Source: Methylopila jiangsuensis (GTDB lineage: Bacteria > Pseudomonadota > Alphaproteobacteria > Rhizobiales > Methylopilaceae). Taken from it: DNA of 64,000 nt. The translations under genes were made by a program, and so were the position numbers. This document shows positions 44,342 to 50,438 of this stretch, piece after piece; positions within the stretch are counted from its first letter, which is position 1; each line of letters opens with the position of its first letter. The notes below the pieces were generated by a model that saw only the letters and a list, made by a program, of their open reading frames with translations, was not told the DNA's origin and searched no databases. The DNA is taken from assembly GCF_027922305.1 (NCBI RefSeq), contig NZ_BSFK01000016.1, positions 186,001 to 250,000 of the forward strand, in the 5' to 3' direction.

Positions 44342-44485
44342 GGCCAAACGCCCCTCTCGTCCGCGCTCCGGCGCGGGCGCGACGGGAACCGCTGATCCCG
44401 GCGTTGTCCGCCTGTCACGCCGGGAACAGCGCCCCAGCCCGCCAACCGCCATGCTCCCTCCCGACGATCACGAGGCGGGCGGAGC

Positions 44486-45298
44486 ATGGCGCGGCGATTC
44501 ACGGCGACGTTCTGGGGCGTGCGGGGCAGCGCCCCCGCCATGGACGGGACCACCGTCCGCTACGGCGGCGACACCTCCTGCGTGGAAGTGGTCTGCGGCG
44601 ATCATCGCCTCGCGCTCGATCTGGGCGGCGGCGCCCGGCGCCTTGGCCTCGCGCTCGCCGACCGGCCTCCGGCGCCGCTCACGCTGCTGCTCAGCCACGC
44701 CCACTACGACCATGTGATGGGGCTGCCGTTCTTCGCCCCGTTCCGCCAAGCGGAGGCGCGCATCCTCGCGCTGTCGCCGGTGGAAGGCGGAGTGGCGCGG
44801 CTCGCGGCGGAGCTGATGCGGCGGCCGTTCTTTCCCGTGGGGCCGGAGGCGCTCGTCGCCCGGATCGTGGATCTGCACGCCGCGCCGGGCGCGGTGTTCG
44901 AGCCGGCGGAGGGCGTGGTCGTGTCCTGCGCCGGCGCCGCCCATGACGGCGGCGCGCTGGCCTGGCGGATCGACTTCGACGGCCGCAGTCTGGTCTATGT
45001 CCCCGACCACGAGGCGGGCGACGCGCAGACCGACCGCACGCTCGCCCATTTCGCCGCCGGCTGCGACCTGCTGATCCACGACGCCACGCTGCCCGAGGCG
45101 GCCCCGCGCGGGCGCCACGGCCATTCGAGCTGGGGCGCGGCGGCGCTCGCCGCGCGCCGGGCCGAGGCGCGGCGGTTGGCGCTGTTCCACCACCATCCGG
45201 AGGCCGGCGACGACCAGCTCGACCGGCTGGCCCATCAGGCGGCGGAGACGCTGCCCGGAACCCTGGTGGCCCGCGCCGGGCAGACGCTCGATCTGTGA
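44486..45298 (+). CDS. MBL-fold metallohydrolase (PhnP-like, COG1235)
   Basis: 270 residues with the metal motif HAHYDH, a second histidine at AAHDGG, and YVPDHEAGD, HDATLP and FHHHPEAGDD closing the site. Many relatives are cyclic or nucleotide phosphodiesterases. The ATG at 44486 follows GGCGGAGC. It stands 33 bp upstream of the FecR gene and in the same direction. Given the cyclase and Crp-type gene nearby, a cyclic-nucleotide phosphodiesterase role is a reasonable hypothesis, not shown. Confidence 0.88.
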   Translation: MARRFTATFWGVRGSAPAMDGTTVRYGGDTSCVEVVCGDHRLALDLGGGARRLGLALADRPPAPLTLLLSHAHYDHVMGLPFFAPFRQAEARILALSPVEGGVARLAAELMRRPFFPVGPEALVARIVDLHAAPGAVFEPAEGVVVSCAGAAHDGGALAWRIDFDGRSLVYVPDHEAGDAQTDRTLAHFAAGCDLLIHDATLPEAAPRGRHGHSSWGAAALAARRAEARRLALFHHHPEAGDDQLDRLAHQAAETLPGTLVARAGQTLDL

Positions 45299-45331
45299 TA
45301 TGCGGAAGAAAACAGGACGGGGGAGACGACC

Positions 45332-45961
45332 ATGACCACAGGCGCGACATCATCCGGCCGGGGCGTCGGCCGGCGCGCGGCGCTGCTGGCGCTGGCGGGC
45401 GCCGCGGCGTGCCCCGGCGCGGCGCTCGCCGGGGCGGGGCCCGTGGGCGAGGTGGCGGAGCTTGAAGGCGGCGCCTTTGCCGAGCGCAACCGGGTGCGCC
45501 GTCTCGCCATGCGCTCCGAGGTGCTGCTGGGCGACACGGTGTGGACCGAGGCCGCCTCCCGCGCCGCGCTCGCGCTCCAGAGCGGCTCCAGGGTCTATCT
45601 CGGCCCGGAGGCCCGGCTCACCATCGACCGTTTCGTGGCGGCGGCGGGCGGCGATCTCCGGCTCGGCGCCGGCGCGCTGGTGTTCGACCGGGCGGAGGGC
45701 CTGCCCAAGACCGACATCGAGGTGCGCTCCGCCTTCGGGCTGATCGGCGTGCGCGGCACCCGCTTCTTCGCGGGGCCGAGCAGGGGCGTGTTCGGCGTGT
45801 TCGTGGCGCGGGGCGCGGTCACCGTGTCGGCGGCGGGCGTCACCCGGCGGCTCGGGGCGGGCGAGGGCGTGGACATTCCCCGCCGCGGCGCCGCCCCCTC
45901 CGACGTCAAGCCATGGGGCAAGGTCCGGATCGATGAGGCGCTGGCCTCCGTGCTCGGCTGA
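45332..45961 (+). CDS. FecR-domain secreted protein
   Basis: 209 residues. A twin-arginine-like signal (GVGRRAALLALAGAAACPGAALA) precedes a FecR domain (about 55-145): SEVLLGDTVWTEAASRAALALQSGSRVYLGP and FGLIGVRGTRFF. FecR-type proteins sense surface or cell-envelope signals, and this form lacks the cytoplasmic anti-sigma part. It is convergent with the cyclase gene, four bases apart. FecR-CHASE2 cyclase pairs are common neighbours in bacteria, suggesting one sensing system. Confidence 0.88.
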   Translation: MTTGATSSGRGVGRRAALLALAGAAACPGAALAGAGPVGEVAELEGGAFAERNRVRRLAMRSEVLLGDTVWTEAASRAALALQSGSRVYLGPEARLTIDRFVAAAGGDLRLGAGALVFDRAEGLPKTDIEVRSAFGLIGVRGTRFFAGPSRGVFGVFVARGAVTVSAAGVTRRLGAGEGVDIPRRGAAPSDVKPWGKVRIDEALASVLG

Positions 45962-45965
45962 CGCC

Positions 45966-47885
45966 TCAGCCGGGCAGCGGTTCGTAGACCTCGATCCGGC
46001 CGAGCCCGCGCAGCTCCACCGCGCCATGGGCCCGGAACGCCACGGCGGACACGCGGGCGCGGGCGGCGGGGCCGACGCAGACCGCCGTTCCGAGCTGCTT
46101 GTTCAGGGCTTCGAGCCGCGCCGCCGTGTTCACCGCGCCGCCATGGGCGGTGTAGTCCAGCTTGGCGCGGGAGCCCACGTCGCCCACCACTGCGAGCCCG
46201 GTCTCGACCCCGACGCGGGTGCGGCCGAAGCCCAGCGCCGCCATGTCCGGCGCGGCGCGGAACGCCTCACCGAAGGCGGCGATGGCGAGCGCCGCCCGCA
46301 CCGCCTGCCCGGCGTGGTTCTCCAGATCGAGCGGCGCGTTGAACAGCGCGTGCGCCGCGTCGCCCACCAGCTTGTCCACCATGCCGCCATGGGCGGTGAC
46401 GATGGCGGTGACGCCGTCGAAGTAGCGGTCGAGCGCGCCGACCACCGCCTCGGCCGGATGCGCTTCGGCGAAGGCGGTGAAGCCCTCCACGTCGGTGAAC
46501 AGCGCCGTCACCTCCCGGCGCTCGCCCGCGAGCTTCAGGAGCTCCGGGTTGCGGGCGATGCGCTCCACCACCGCCGGGGCGAGATGGCTTTCGAACCGGC
46601 GGCGCAGCGCCGCCGCCTTCCGGCGGGCGTCCACCGCCGCGACCAGTCCCGCGCCGCCGCCGGACAGCAGGGCGGCGAGCGCCGACGAAGCGGGATCGAG
46701 CGCGAGGCCGAAGCCGAACAGCGCGGCGAGCGCCCCGGCCGCCCACAGTCCGGCGAGGCCGACCGCCGCCACAGCCGCGAGCGCCGGCCCCGCCAGCGCG
46801 CCCGCCGCCGCGGCGGCGAGGGCGAGGAGGACGGCGCCCGCCGCCTCCACCCGCCCGGCGCCATCGGGCCGCACCGGCGCGGCGCCCGACAGCAGCGTCT
46901 CCACCGCGTCCGCGTGGATCTGGACCGAGGGCGCGATGGCGCTCGCCGCCGTGCGGCGCAAAGCGCCGAGCGCGGGCGCGGAACCGCCGATCAGCACGAT
47001 CCGCCCCGCGAAGCCCGCCGACGGCGCCCGTCCGGCCAGCACGTCGGCGGCGGAGACGCTGCGCCCCCGCCAGCGGTCAGGGCTGGTGGCGCGGAAGCGG
47101 AGGCTCGCCTCCGCGATGAGCGGCGCCGACACGCCGCCGACCCTGAGTCGGCCCGCGCCGCCGTCCAGCACATAGAGCGCCGCGCCTTCCCGCAGACGCA
47201 CGGCGGCGGCGGCGAGACCCGCCAGCGGCTGTTCTCCGGCCAGCGCGAACAGCGGCGCCCGGCGCAGCACGCCGTCGCCATCGGCCGACAGCGACGCCAC
47301 GGCCACCTCGCTGGCCCGCCGGCGCAGCGGCGGGAAGGGCAGCGCGGCGCCCTCCGCCCGCCAGGGCGCGAGCGCGGGCGGCGGCCCCGACAGCGCGACC
47401 GGCGCCGGCGGGGCCGCGTCGCCGGACGCCGGCCCGAGCAGCGCGGCGAGCGCGGTCGGCGCCCGCGCCAGCGCCGCGGCGAGCCGGGCGTCGGGATCGG
47501 GCAGGCGCGCCACGGCCGTTACCGCGTCCGCGTCGCCGGAGCGGGCGGCGAGCGCGCGGGCGAGCGCCTCGGGCGCGCTGCGGTCCGGTCCCTCCAGCAG
47601 GATGTCGAGCGCGAGCGCGGCCGGCGCGCCGTCGGCCACCCGCTCCGCCAGCGCCGCCAGCCGGTCGCGGGGCCAGGGCCACGGCCCTTCCGCCGCGAGG
47701 CTCGCCTGGTCGATGTCGACCACCGTCACGGCGGCGCTCGCCGGGAGCGGCGCCCAGGCCAGCGCGGCGTCCAGCGCCCGCTCGCGCAGCGCGGCGACCG
47801 CGCCTCCGCCGTCGACGGCGGCGGCCAGCGCCGCGAGGCCGGCGAGCGCAAGCCCGGCCAGACCCGCGCGCCAGCGGCCTCTCAC
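45966..47885 (-). CDS. CHASE2-like membrane class III nucleotide cyclase
   Basis: 639 residues from a GTG that overlaps the stop of the regulator gene (GTGA). The N-terminal sensor is CHASE2-like (about 25-340, VTVVDIDQASLAAEGPWPWPRDRLA), followed by about three helices (345-420) and a class III cyclase domain (about 455-600). Metal aspartates D465 and D509, adenine-type K505 and D577, and N586/R590 (VNTAARLE) are all visible, so adenylate cyclase activity is predicted. The residue pattern favours ATP over GTP. The sensor probably faces the periplasm. Confidence 0.9.
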   Translation of the reverse strand: MRGRWRAGLAGLALAGLAALAAAVDGGGAVAALRERALDAALAWAPLPASAAVTVVDIDQASLAAEGPWPWPRDRLAALAERVADGAPAALALDILLEGPDRSAPEALARALAARSGDADAVTAVARLPDPDARLAAALARAPTALAALLGPASGDAAPPAPVALSGPPPALAPWRAEGAALPFPPLRRRASEVAVASLSADGDGVLRRAPLFALAGEQPLAGLAAAAVRLREGAALYVLDGGAGRLRVGGVSAPLIAEASLRFRATSPDRWRGRSVSAADVLAGRAPSAGFAGRIVLIGGSAPALGALRRTAASAIAPSVQIHADAVETLLSGAAPVRPDGAGRVEAAGAVLLALAAAAAGALAGPALAAVAAVGLAGLWAAGALAALFGFGLALDPASSALAALLSGGGAGLVAAVDARRKAAALRRRFESHLAPAVVERIARNPELLKLAGERREVTALFTDVEGFTAFAEAHPAEAVVGALDRYFDGVTAIVTAHGGMVDKLVGDAAHALFNAPLDLENHAGQAVRAALAIAAFGEAFRAAPDMAALGFGRTRVGVETGLAVVGDVGSRAKLDYTAHGGAVNTAARLEALNKQLGTAVCVGPAARARVSAVAFRAHGAVELRGLGRIEVYEPLPG

Positions 47886-48577
47886 GCCCCGCCGTCCGCG
47901 ATCGCGGTCAGCGTGTCGACCTGAAGCCGCAGCGCGCGCCCCTCCCGCGCCACCGCGCCGGCGGCCTCCAGCGCCGCGAGCGCGCCGTTGAGCTTGGGGC
48001 GCGAGGCGCCCAGCATGTCGGCGATCTCGCTCTGGTTCAGCGCCAGCTCCAGCCGCGCCGTCCGGCGGCCGGCCTCCACGTCGGCGCGGGCGAGCGCCAG
48101 CAGGAAGCGGGCGAGGCGCGGCTCCAGCCGGTAGAGCGCGATCGACTCCATCTGGTCGGTGGTGTCGCGCAGGCGCCGGCACAGGAAGCGGACGACCGCG
48201 CGGGCCAGCGACGGGCGCTCGGCGAGAAGCCGGTCCATGTCGGCGCGCGCCAGCGCCAGAACGCGGGCCTCGGTGACGGCGGTCGCGTCCGCCGACCGCG
48301 CGCCGCCGTCGAGCGCGGCCATTTCGCCGATGAGCGCGCCGGTTTCCGCATGGCGCAGCGACAGCTCGCGGCCCTCCGCGGACAGCACCGAGAGCCGGAT
48401 GCGCCCCTCAAGGACGATGAACATCTCGGCGCCCGCATCGCCGCGCTGGAACAGCGTCGCGCCGGCGGAGAAACGGCGCGGCCGGGCGGCGGCGGCGAGC
48501 GCCGCCACGTCCTCCGGGCGCGCGCCGGCGAAAAGATCAAGCCCGCCGATCCGGTCGGCGGCCGCCGTCGCAGCCAT
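47882..48577 (-). CDS. Crp/Fnr-family transcriptional regulator
   Basis: 231 residues. The cyclic-nucleotide-binding domain (about 1-140) keeps the phosphate-binding cassette GALIGEMAALDGGARSADATA, with Glu and Arg in place, and the C-terminal winged helix (about 150-225, LALNQSEIADMLGASRPKLNGALAALEAAG) contacts DNA. No cysteine cluster is visible, so it is Crp-like rather than Fnr-like. It is translationally coupled to the cyclase gene, so the cyclase probably makes its ligand. Confidence 0.92.
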   Translation of the reverse strand: MAATAAADRIGGLDLFAGARPEDVAALAAAARPRRFSAGATLFQRGDAGAEMFIVLEGRIRLSVLSAEGRELSLRHAETGALIGEMAALDGGARSADATAVTEARVLALARADMDRLLAERPSLARAVVRFLCRRLRDTTDQMESIALYRLEPRLARFLLALARADVEAGRRTARLELALNQSEIADMLGASRPKLNGALAALEAAGAVAREGRALRLQVDTLTAIADGGA

Positions 48578-48620: not shown

Positions 48621-50438
48621 CTACGCCACGCCGTCGATGGGGTTCAAGCCGCCCGCGTGCCGGGACAGATGAGCCACGGGTCCCGGCGCCACGCTCACGG
48701 CGTCGCGGCCGCCCGCCTTCGCGGCGTAAAGCGCGTTGTCCGCAAGCGTCGTCAGCTCGCGCCAGTCCCGCGCGCCGCTCGCCACCCCGAAGCTCGCCGT
48801 GACGGAGAGAAAGCCGGCGCCGTCGGGGAGCGCGACGGGCTCCGCCGCCAGCGCGCGGCGCAGGGTCTCGGCGAGGGCCGCCGTCTCCTCCACGGAACGC
48901 TCCTCGGTCAGGATGGCGAACTCGTCGCCGCCGAAGCGCGCCACCAGATCGCGCCCATGCGTCAGCTCCTGCGCACGGCGCGCCACGTGGCGAATGACCT
49001 CATCGCCCGCGGGGTGGCCGTGCCGGTCGTTGACGGCCTTGAAGTTGTCCACGTCGAACAGGATCAGGATCGCCACCGGCATGCGGCGGCGATCCCGCTC
49101 CATCCGAGCGACGAAGGCCTCCAGGCCGCCCCGGTTCAGCACGCCCGTCAGCGCGTCGGTCGAAGCCTGCCGCTGGAGATCCACGGTCATCTCGTCCCGC
49201 AGGCGCAGGCGCTCGCGCAGCACGTCGATGGCGTCGAACAGCCCGCCGAACTCGCCGGGAGCGCCGCCGGTCCAGGGCGATGCGTCCGCCTCGCCCGCGA
49301 GCGCGATCACCTCGCGCCGCGCCCGCATCAGGGGCGCGAACACCCGACGCTCCGCATACAGCACGACGAGGATGACGACGCCGATCAGCGCGAGAGCGGC
49401 GGCGACGGCGCCAAGAAGCGCGAACAGGGCGTCGTCCCGCCGCTTCGCCAGTCTGGCCTCCGAGGCCGCAAGCATCGCCCGCTGCAACTGCAGCACCGGC
49501 TGAAAGGTCGCGACGAAACGCTGGGTGAACTCCGCCGCGCTCAGGCTGTACTGGCCGGACGAACGGCCTTCACCGATGGTCGTCTCCACCAGACCGAGCC
49601 CTTCGCGCAGAAACACCTGCTCGGTCTCGTGGATGAGCCCGTTCAGCCGCTCGTCCCGGAACGGGCCGCCCGCCATGCCTTCGAACAGGCTCCACAGCCC
49701 GCTGATGTGGCCAATGGTCTGGCGGGCCGCGAGCAGGTTCGTCATCGGCATGGCCTGGTTCAGCGCCAGCGGAGCGATGATGTTGGAGCCGACCCGCCCG
49801 GCGTGATCGCGGAATTCGGCCAGCACCCGCCCGGCCTGCGCCGCGGAGGCGAGATCCGGATCGTTGCGCGCCAACTGCGCCGCCTTCCAGCGCACCAGCT
49901 CCCGATGCATGTCGGAGGCGTGGAACATGGCGGTGATCGCGCCCTCGATGTCCCCGAGCGTCCGATGCTCGAACGGCAGTTCGCGCACCCGGTCCACCTC
50001 GCTTCGCGCCACCGCGAGACGGGCCTTGGCCCGTTCCAGCAGCACCTCGAACGTGGCTTCGGCGGTCGTCGCCGCGCCGGGCAGGACGGAGGCCGCGACC
50101 AGGCCGCCGGCCGTCATGGCAACCTGATCGACGGTCCGCCGGGCGGCGACCAGAGCGGCGGAGGCCTGCGCATCCTCGACGCGCAGGGCCATGGCGGCGT
50201 TGGCCGGTCCGCGCTCCGCCGCGACGGCGTTCGAGAGATCCAGCACGGTGCGGAACGTGGCGAGCGCCGCGCTCCCCGTCTGGGCCAGTTGAAAATCCTG
50301 ATAGACGCGGCCGACAAGCAGTCCCGCCAGAACGGCGACGCAGATCACGGCCGCGCCGGCCGCGAAGCGAAGTCGGCGCTCGAGATGTCGCGCGGACACG
50401 CCCTGTAAATCCTCCGCCGGCGCTGCGCGTCTCTGCAC
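48621..50438 (-). CDS. membrane diguanylate cyclase (GGDEF)
   Basis: 605 residues. Two membrane helices (about 25-45 and 342-362) bracket a periplasmic helical sensor of about 295 residues, followed by a HAMP-like linker and a GGDEF domain with FGGDEF at 502-507. The upstream inhibitory site is HGRD instead of RxxD, so product inhibition may be weakened. No EAL domain follows. It makes cyclic di-GMP. It lies 43 bp upstream of the regulator gene on the same strand. The sensor ligand is unknown. Confidence 0.93.
   Translation of the reverse strand: MQRRAAPAEDLQGVSARHLERRLRFAAGAAVICVAVLAGLLVGRVYQDFQLAQTGSAALATFRTVLDLSNAVAAERGPANAAMALRVEDAQASAALVAARRTVDQVAMTAGGLVAASVLPGAATTAEATFEVLLERAKARLAVARSEVDRVRELPFEHRTLGDIEGAITAMFHASDMHRELVRWKAAQLARNDPDLASAAQAGRVLAEFRDHAGRVGSNIIAPLALNQAMPMTNLLAARQTIGHISGLWSLFEGMAGGPFRDERLNGLIHETEQVFLREGLGLVETTIGEGRSSGQYSLSAAEFTQRFVATFQPVLQLQRAMLAASEARLAKRRDDALFALLGAVAAALALIGVVILVVLYAERRVFAPLMRARREVIALAGEADASPWTGGAPGEFGGLFDAIDVLRERLRLRDEMTVDLQRQASTDALTGVLNRGGLEAFVARMERDRRRMPVAILILFDVDNFKAVNDRHGHPAGDEVIRHVARRAQELTHGRDLVARFGGDEFAILTEERSVEETAALAETLRRALAAEPVALPDGAGFLSVTASFGVASGARDWRELTTLADNALYAAKAGGRDAVSVAPGPVAHLSRHAGGLNPIDGVA

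Follow-up and report, generated by a model that had tools for sequence, protein, structure and literature searches.

Can a single locus hold all that a cyclic-nucleotide signal needs to be made, sensed and removed? The question is raised by four genes of Methylopila jiangsuensis (contig NZ_BSFK01000016.1) in a window of 64,000 nucleotides, by which we mean the whole stretch of DNA analysed here. They encode a metallo-beta-lactamase (MBL) fold hydrolase, a FecR-domain protein, a CHASE2 class III nucleotidyl cyclase and a Crp-Fnr regulator. A first-pass annotation, made from the letters alone, placed synthesis, sensing and possible degradation of the signal together in this locus. Overall that reading is supported, and largely so by comparison rather than by biochemistry: synthesis and sensing are backed by the intact cyclase residues and by the kept contacts of the Sinorhizobium meliloti regulator Clr, while degradation is the weakest part. 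The genes probably make up a cyclic-nucleotide signalling module that is complete in itself and of the kind known as Clr/CyaD1 in S. meliloti, with the MBL enzyme as predicted negative feedback. The argument turns on these features:

44413-44428, plus strand: Clr-type operator-like site TGTCACGCCGGGAACA, a strict match to the published consensus
44486-45298, plus strand: MBL-fold metallohydrolase gene, a putative cyclic-nucleotide phosphodiesterase (PF12706)
45332-45961, plus strand: FecR-domain protein gene (PF04773)
45966-47885, minus strand: CHASE2-class III nucleotidyl cyclase gene (PF05226 and PF00211), 639 amino acids from a GTG start at 47885
47882-48577, minus strand: Crp-Fnr regulator gene of the Clr type (7pza match of 191 bits; conserved contact residues)

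Layout and gene order

All four gene products pass the Pfam cut-offs, and the genes have the places and orientations first annotated. The MBL-FecR pair on the plus strand runs head-on into the regulator-cyclase pair on the minus strand, with 4 bp between the end of the FecR gene and the cyclase stop codon. The cyclase and regulator genes do overlap, as had been claimed, the regulator stop (47882) and the cyclase GTG start sharing 4 bp (GTGA).

The scheme proposed here builds on the genes, their residues, the operator match and the finding that relatives conserve both the operator and the gene order. It would start with a cue in the periplasm, which the secreted FecR-domain protein probably presents or gates. 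The cue would reach the membrane cyclase through its CHASE2 domain, and the cyclase would make 3',5'-cyclic AMP (cAMP) and perhaps some cyclic GMP (cGMP). The Clr-type regulator would bind the cyclic nucleotide and then TGTCACGCCGGGAACA 5' of the MBL-FecR pair, acting by activation rather than repression. Its binding would raise the MBL enzyme, whose most likely activity, hydrolysis of the cyclic nucleotide, would provide negative feedback; FecR, which may reset or tune the input, would be raised as well.

Relatives of the locus were compared in a set of 38 Clr-type loci, made up of the window's own locus, 19 named loci, L032 and L033, and 16 more that were found by searching 249 genomes of the order (L numbers are our locus handles). 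L147, L148, L149, L151, L154 and L163, judged duplicates of named loci, and L034, whose Crp protein is without the Clr DNA contacts, were left out; 18 lower-scoring Crp loci (L169-L186) were annotated and stand uncounted outside the 38. A class III cyclase is present in 35 of the 38, L162 being scored as without one as its sequence ends inside the cyclase gene, and a CHASE2 domain is present in 26. The FecR gene occurs in 18 loci and always with CHASE2 (18/26 of the CHASE2-bearing loci). The combination of the S. meliloti clr-cyaD1 type, a Clr-type gene with a CHASE2 cyclase and a nearby FecR gene, is that of 18/38 loci, the window among them. The MBL gene is found in just three loci (the window, L123 and L167). 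In L123 (Methylobrevis albus) the four-gene arrangement is identical to that of the window; in L167 the Crp, MBL and FecR genes lie on one strand and the cyclase gene faces them. In all three the MBL gene comes before FecR and both point towards the cyclase gene; for L123 and L167, Pfam confirmed the genes for the MBL, FecR and CHASE2-cyclase proteins. In L155, L156, L158-L161, L164-L166 and L168 the Clr-type regulator is followed by a class III cyclase of another kind, in which no CHASE2 domain was recognised.

Predicted synthesis and input

The cyclase scores 142 bits for CHASE2 (PF05226) and 60 bits for Guanylate_cyc (PF00211). The catalytic roles of six residues in class III cyclases are textbook assignments, and the residue set of a class III adenylate cyclase (two Asp, Lys with Asp or Thr, Asn, Arg) is complete in the window cyclase. 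Numbered from the GTG at 47885, the metal residues are Asp465 and Asp509, the base-contact residues Lys505 and Thr579, and the transition-state residues Asn586 and Arg590, so that the first-pass claim of kept metal, adenine and transition-state residues is borne out. Thr instead of Asp as the second base-contact residue is the subclass IIIb arrangement, and a Lys/Thr pair favours ATP; at the place of this Thr, the photoactivated cyclase 5x4t has DYT in the alignment. The CHASE2 cyclase is apparently intact and is predicted from its residues to make cAMP. It has hydrophobic peaks at 7-25 and 351-390; one hydrophobic stretch precedes the CHASE2 domain and further ones follow it. The genome of 3.7 Mb was searched for cyclases of classes I and III and no others: the window cyclase is the only PF00211 match, and class I gave none.

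FecR (PF04773, 42 bits, residues 68-163) is the sole Pfam domain of the neighbouring protein, the N-terminus of which looks signal-peptide-like when judged by eye. The domain takes its name from FecR, an anti-sigma regulator, a point that counts for a different account, in which the protein is a classical anti-sigma regulator and its arrangement beside the cyclase is incidental. The layout of anti-sigma FecR proteins, with a cytoplasmic N-terminal domain and a membrane span before the FecR domain, is not seen here; the FecR domain alone is recognised, behind the signal-peptide-like N-terminus. A FecR match is also present in 24/34 CHASE2-cyclase-centred loci, besides the Clr-type loci counted above, and published work reports the pairing of FecR with CHASE2 cyclases in Campylobacterota and S. 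meliloti (PMC9239204, PMC5498481). An anti-sigma role is very improbable on this evidence, and the protein is presumed to be the periplasmic partner of the CHASE2 cyclase. The part of a 'FecR sensor', which the first-pass annotation gave it, is putative and plausible. A PDB search with the FecR protein gave no match. In S. meliloti a plant protein acts on the CHASE2 cyclases by way of NsrA, a protein of the outer membrane (PMC13001267), and an input from the envelope is therefore plausible for the window cyclase too.

Probable sensing by a Clr-type regulator

The regulator scores 76 bits for cNMP_binding (cyclic nucleoside monophosphate, cNMP) and 47 bits for HTH_Crp_2. Its best PDB match is 7pza/7pzb, with 191 bits against 105 bits for the next PDB sequence. 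We take 7pza to be Clr of S. meliloti; the PDB entry itself is labelled putative cAMP-binding protein. Clr contacts its ligand (cAMP or cGMP) through G85, E86, R95, S96, T140 and T141 and its DNA through Q184, S194, R195, K197, N199 and L152 (PMC10127613). All the counterparts in the window regulator are identical, namely G84, E85, R94, S95, T139 and T140 for the ligand and Q182, S192, R193, K195, N197 and L151 for the DNA. The phosphate-binding Glu and Arg that had been said to be kept are Glu85 and Arg94. The position of Clr R200, a residue that makes no DNA contact (PMC10127613), is Gly in the window regulator. The kept ligand and DNA contacts support a Clr-like protein, belonging to the Clr subfamily of Crp-Fnr (cluster G). 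Clr is responsive to both cAMP and cGMP (PMC10127613), and the same dual response is therefore expected of the window regulator. The SRPK-N pattern is present in the regulators of 36/38 Clr-type loci; strict ligand-motif patterns matched 29/38 and 28/38 rows, counts that are not used in the argument.

The operator-like site

The published Clr consensus HGTYHCNNNNGRWACA has one strict match in the window, at 44413-44428, where 0.03 would be expected. Its centre lies 65.5 bp 5' of the MBL ATG, within the 144 bp before the gene; in S. meliloti a Clr site lies ~68 bp before the start codon of SMc02178 (PMC4222275). The other two MBL-bearing loci also have a site before MBL, centred 76.5 bp from the start with one mismatch to the strict consensus in L123 and 87.5 bp from it with a strict match in L167, and GGGAACAGCG is common to all three. 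The three box-to-MBL distances step by 11 bp, about one helical turn each, in three loci only. Across the 38 Clr-type loci there are 36 strict sites against 1.55 in shuffles (maximum 4 in 20 shuffles), an enrichment of ~23-fold; 13 of these are found upstream of an aligned Crp, FecR or MBL gene start, at no more than 260 bp from it, and 23 elsewhere. A subset of 22 Clr-type loci has 24 strict sites with 0.87 expected, and 61 comparison loci chosen without Clr have four with 3.3 expected.

Two other patterns were tried and rejected. The E. coli CRP operator TGTGAN6TCACA has two matches with up to two mismatches in the window, against 7.8 expected. TGTTN8AACA has no exact match there and two with one mismatch against 1.96 expected, and one of these two is the site that meets the strict Clr consensus.

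Not all observations on the site favour an operator. Genome-wide the strict motif is not enriched, with 8 rows (6 places) against 13 for the reversed pattern; it is therefore its place, not its occurrence, that counts. The looser core GTNNCNNNNGNNAC, with 13 matches in the window where 16 would be expected, is also unenriched and is uninformative alone, and no strict site was found in the 64-kb window before the regulator gene itself. The strict genome matches outside the locus are at two parS-like places and at three further places (L117-L119). The former are TGTTTCACGTGAAACA, found twice outside the window at C16:101932 and C16:103963 (C16 is our contig handle), ~2 kb apart; they fit the Clr consensus too and were set aside as what we take to be parS sites. 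The site also overlaps a second element:

44397-44424, no strand: inverted repeat CCCGGCGT-N12-ACGCCGGG (sequence and folding), overlapping the operator-like site

This repeat is perfect over 8 bp and is extended by GCTG/CAGC, and folding of the whole intergenic stretch before MBL gives a z of -2.61. The site could accordingly belong to a hairpin at which transcripts of the upstream FAH-hydrolase gene end, and the regulator would then have no part in the expression of MBL-FecR. No T run or terminator-like site was found at the repeat (44397-44424), and the strict boxes are enriched in Clr-type loci as described. The L123 and L167 sites keep the box and GGGAACAGCG and have no CCCGGCGT arm; as the inverted repeat in the window's form is missing from both, the operator is favoured and the hairpin account is improbable. 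By position and conservation, TGTCACGCCGGGAACA is likely the predicted Clr operator for MBL-FecR.

The MBL hydrolase

The MBL protein scores 69 bits for Lactamase_B_2 (PF12706). Its motif SHAHYDH at residues 70-76 fits the [T/S]HXHXDH of atypical class II phosphodiesterases; RNase Z shares the motif, which is hence unspecific. H71, H73, D75, H76, H153, D174 and H235/H236, which have metal-ligand roles, do not vary among 16 aligned family members. The label 'PhnP-like' of the first-pass annotation does not describe the protein well, and PhnP membership is rejected on score: TIGR03307 yields 12.7 bits against a cut-off of 272, and YhfI and RNase Z are nearer, though fold and profile reach PhnP lower down. 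The nearest solved proteins in the profile search are RNase Z, then BA1088 and YhfI, with PhnP and Apyc1 lower; the family profile reaches Apyc1 (7u2s) at 1.8e-4. An AlphaFold2 model built from two sequences (predicted local distance difference test, pLDDT, 75.9; predicted template-modelling score, pTM, 0.84) has YhfI (6kns) as its best Foldseek match, at ~20% identity in the structural alignment, and RNase Z, the PhnP-family diphosphatase 6b9v, PhnP 3g1p and Apyc1 come further down the list. YhfI prefers cAMP and cGMP over cCMP and cUMP (PMC9117128) and is grouped with Rv1339 and CpdA as an atypical class II phosphodiesterase (PMC9293780). A PHROGs search with the MBL protein gave no match.

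The neighbours of MBL relatives were surveyed from 80 relatives, with 29 other places at E<1e-20. A class III cyclase lies within 8 kb in 19 of the 29, where 1.18 are expected from cyclase counts per genome under uniform placement, the genomes being related; a cNMP-binding gene lies within 8 kb in 18. The receivers beside these relatives include a 150-residue cNMP protein, Na+/H+ exchanger-cNMP proteins and ABC-cNMP proteins. The window MBL groups with the Methylobrevis MBL (100/99) in the MBL tree, CHASE2-linked MBLs stand at separate places in it, and cyclase- or cNMP-linked relatives occur in several subclades. On an Ensifer plasmid, FecR, TPR, cyclase and MBL are annotated in a row.

Some arrangements among these relatives deserve separate mention. 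A stand-alone cNMP-binding protein of ~150 amino acids, an MBL and a class III cyclase of ~460 amino acids lie close together in L092, L095, L096, L098, L104, L108, L111, L113 and L114, and this trio recurs in many families of the order. In L046, L053 and L058 a CHASE2 cyclase is followed by MBL and a large cNMP-domain protein, with FecR nearby; the large protein of L046 was confirmed as a Na+/H+ exchanger-cNMP protein.

The MBL enzyme most likely degrades the 3',5'-cAMP or cGMP signal, to judge from its fold and its company, and this is the part of the circuit that meets the most resistance. The sensing circuit may be real with the MBL acting on 2',3'-cyclic nucleotides, RNA ends or another phosphodiester, as a regulon member or as an insulator of the kind proposed for SpdA of S. 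meliloti. NF041851, the cyclic-nucleotide phosphodiesterase model, gives 32.4 bits against a cut-off of 400 and is outscored by RNase Z models; all 16 family members match it at E<=0.001. The MBL is absent from 35/38 Clr-type loci, the 8 kb around 10 of the 29 relatives are free of class III cyclases, and the copy on S. meliloti pMl1 has no annotated class III cyclase nearby. SpdA itself is without detectable activity on 3',5'-cAMP and specific for 2',3'-cNMP (PMC4222275). On the other side stand the nearest fold, that of YhfI with its reported preference, and the clustering of MBL relatives with class III cyclases and cNMP-binding genes in several subclades, and a substrate other than the 3',5' signal is the rather unlikely choice. 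For the 3',5' reading a wider form can be put forward, to which we would give an even chance: the WGVRGS-type MBL family may be a 3',5'-cNMP phosphodiesterase that serves cyclase networks across the Alphaproteobacteria, its cNMP receiver being exchangeable (an ABC protein, a Na+/H+ exchanger, a stand-alone cNMP protein or a Crp regulator), and may be placed here under a Clr operator, which would make a full sense-respond-reset loop in one cluster.

Genome context

One further gene adjoins the locus:

48621-50438, minus strand: GGDEF diguanylate cyclase gene (PF00990), 5' of the regulator gene

It ends 43 bp before the regulator start and may be co-transcribed with the regulator. Its product scores 119 bits for PF00990 and has an intact motif at residue 503 and two hydrophobic stretches. 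None of the other 37 Clr-type loci was found to have a GGDEF gene next to its regulator, and the gene is therefore kept out of the mechanism; a cyclic di-GMP (c-di-GMP) link to the circuit, peculiar to this genome, is possible.

Transfer of the locus into this genome was considered. A full-length cyclase match is absent from 12/12 same-genus relatives, as is a strong MBL match (one weak match at 4e-4). Set against this are a GC content that is not low, a window in which no tRNA was found, and flanking genes of which FAH is itself variable (4/13 genomes) and YkuD constant (13/13 genomes). Same-genus relatives L067-L071 have a FecR protein of ~1,250 amino acids, a cyclase and a facing cNMP-domain protein; in L067 the TPR repeats of the FecR protein and the Na+/H+ exchanger-cNMP protein were confirmed.

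Comparison with known systems

Of the known systems, the S. meliloti locus clr - cyaD1 - SMc02177 (FecR) - SMc02178 - spdA comes closest. It shares with the window a regulator of the Clr type next to a CHASE2 class III cyclase (PMC5498481, PMC4222275, PMC10127613), a FecR-domain gene, a predicted phosphodiesterase gene and a Clr site 5' of a locus gene. The phosphodiesterases differ: SpdA is a class III metallophosphoesterase whose expression is clr-independent (PMC4222275), whereas the window has an MBL with a Clr-type site. Similar clr-cyclase-FecR sets in plant-nodule bacteria are known already. A Campylobacterota adenylate cyclase cluster likewise joins a CHASE2 cyclase, a FecR-domain protein and a phosphodiesterase, with a TPR protein in addition; the extracts of PMC9239204 describe no adjacent Crp regulator or operator and leave the type of phosphodiesterase unstated.

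Rv1339, YhfI and C. glutamicum CpdA, the atypical class II phosphodiesterases, have in common with the window enzyme the MBL fold, PF12706 and [T/S]HXHXDH; the difference is that the window MBL is only ~20% identical to YhfI and falls below the NF041851 cut-off. Apyc1, a cNMP phosphodiesterase of phages and bacteria, also has the class II MBL fold, and the window MBL is not in a phage context and has a putative specificity. With PhnP the MBL phosphodiesterase fold is common, and the window protein is far below the PhnP model and ranks PhnP under YhfI and RNase Z. What looks new is that an MBL takes the place of the phosphodiesterase and is preceded by an apparent Clr-type operator; no description of cNMP-MBL-cyclase gene sets, or of Clr with a metallo-beta-lactamase, was found in a limited literature collection.

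The inactivity of SpdA on 3',5'-cAMP (PMC4222275) leaves signal termination open in S. meliloti. The Methylopila locus is a small test case: a single cyclase and a single regulator stand together with one candidate off-enzyme and one predicted operator, and no other class I or III cyclase was found in the genome. If its MBL acts on cAMP or cGMP, the relatives that lie beside many class III cyclases would be candidates for the missing off-switches.

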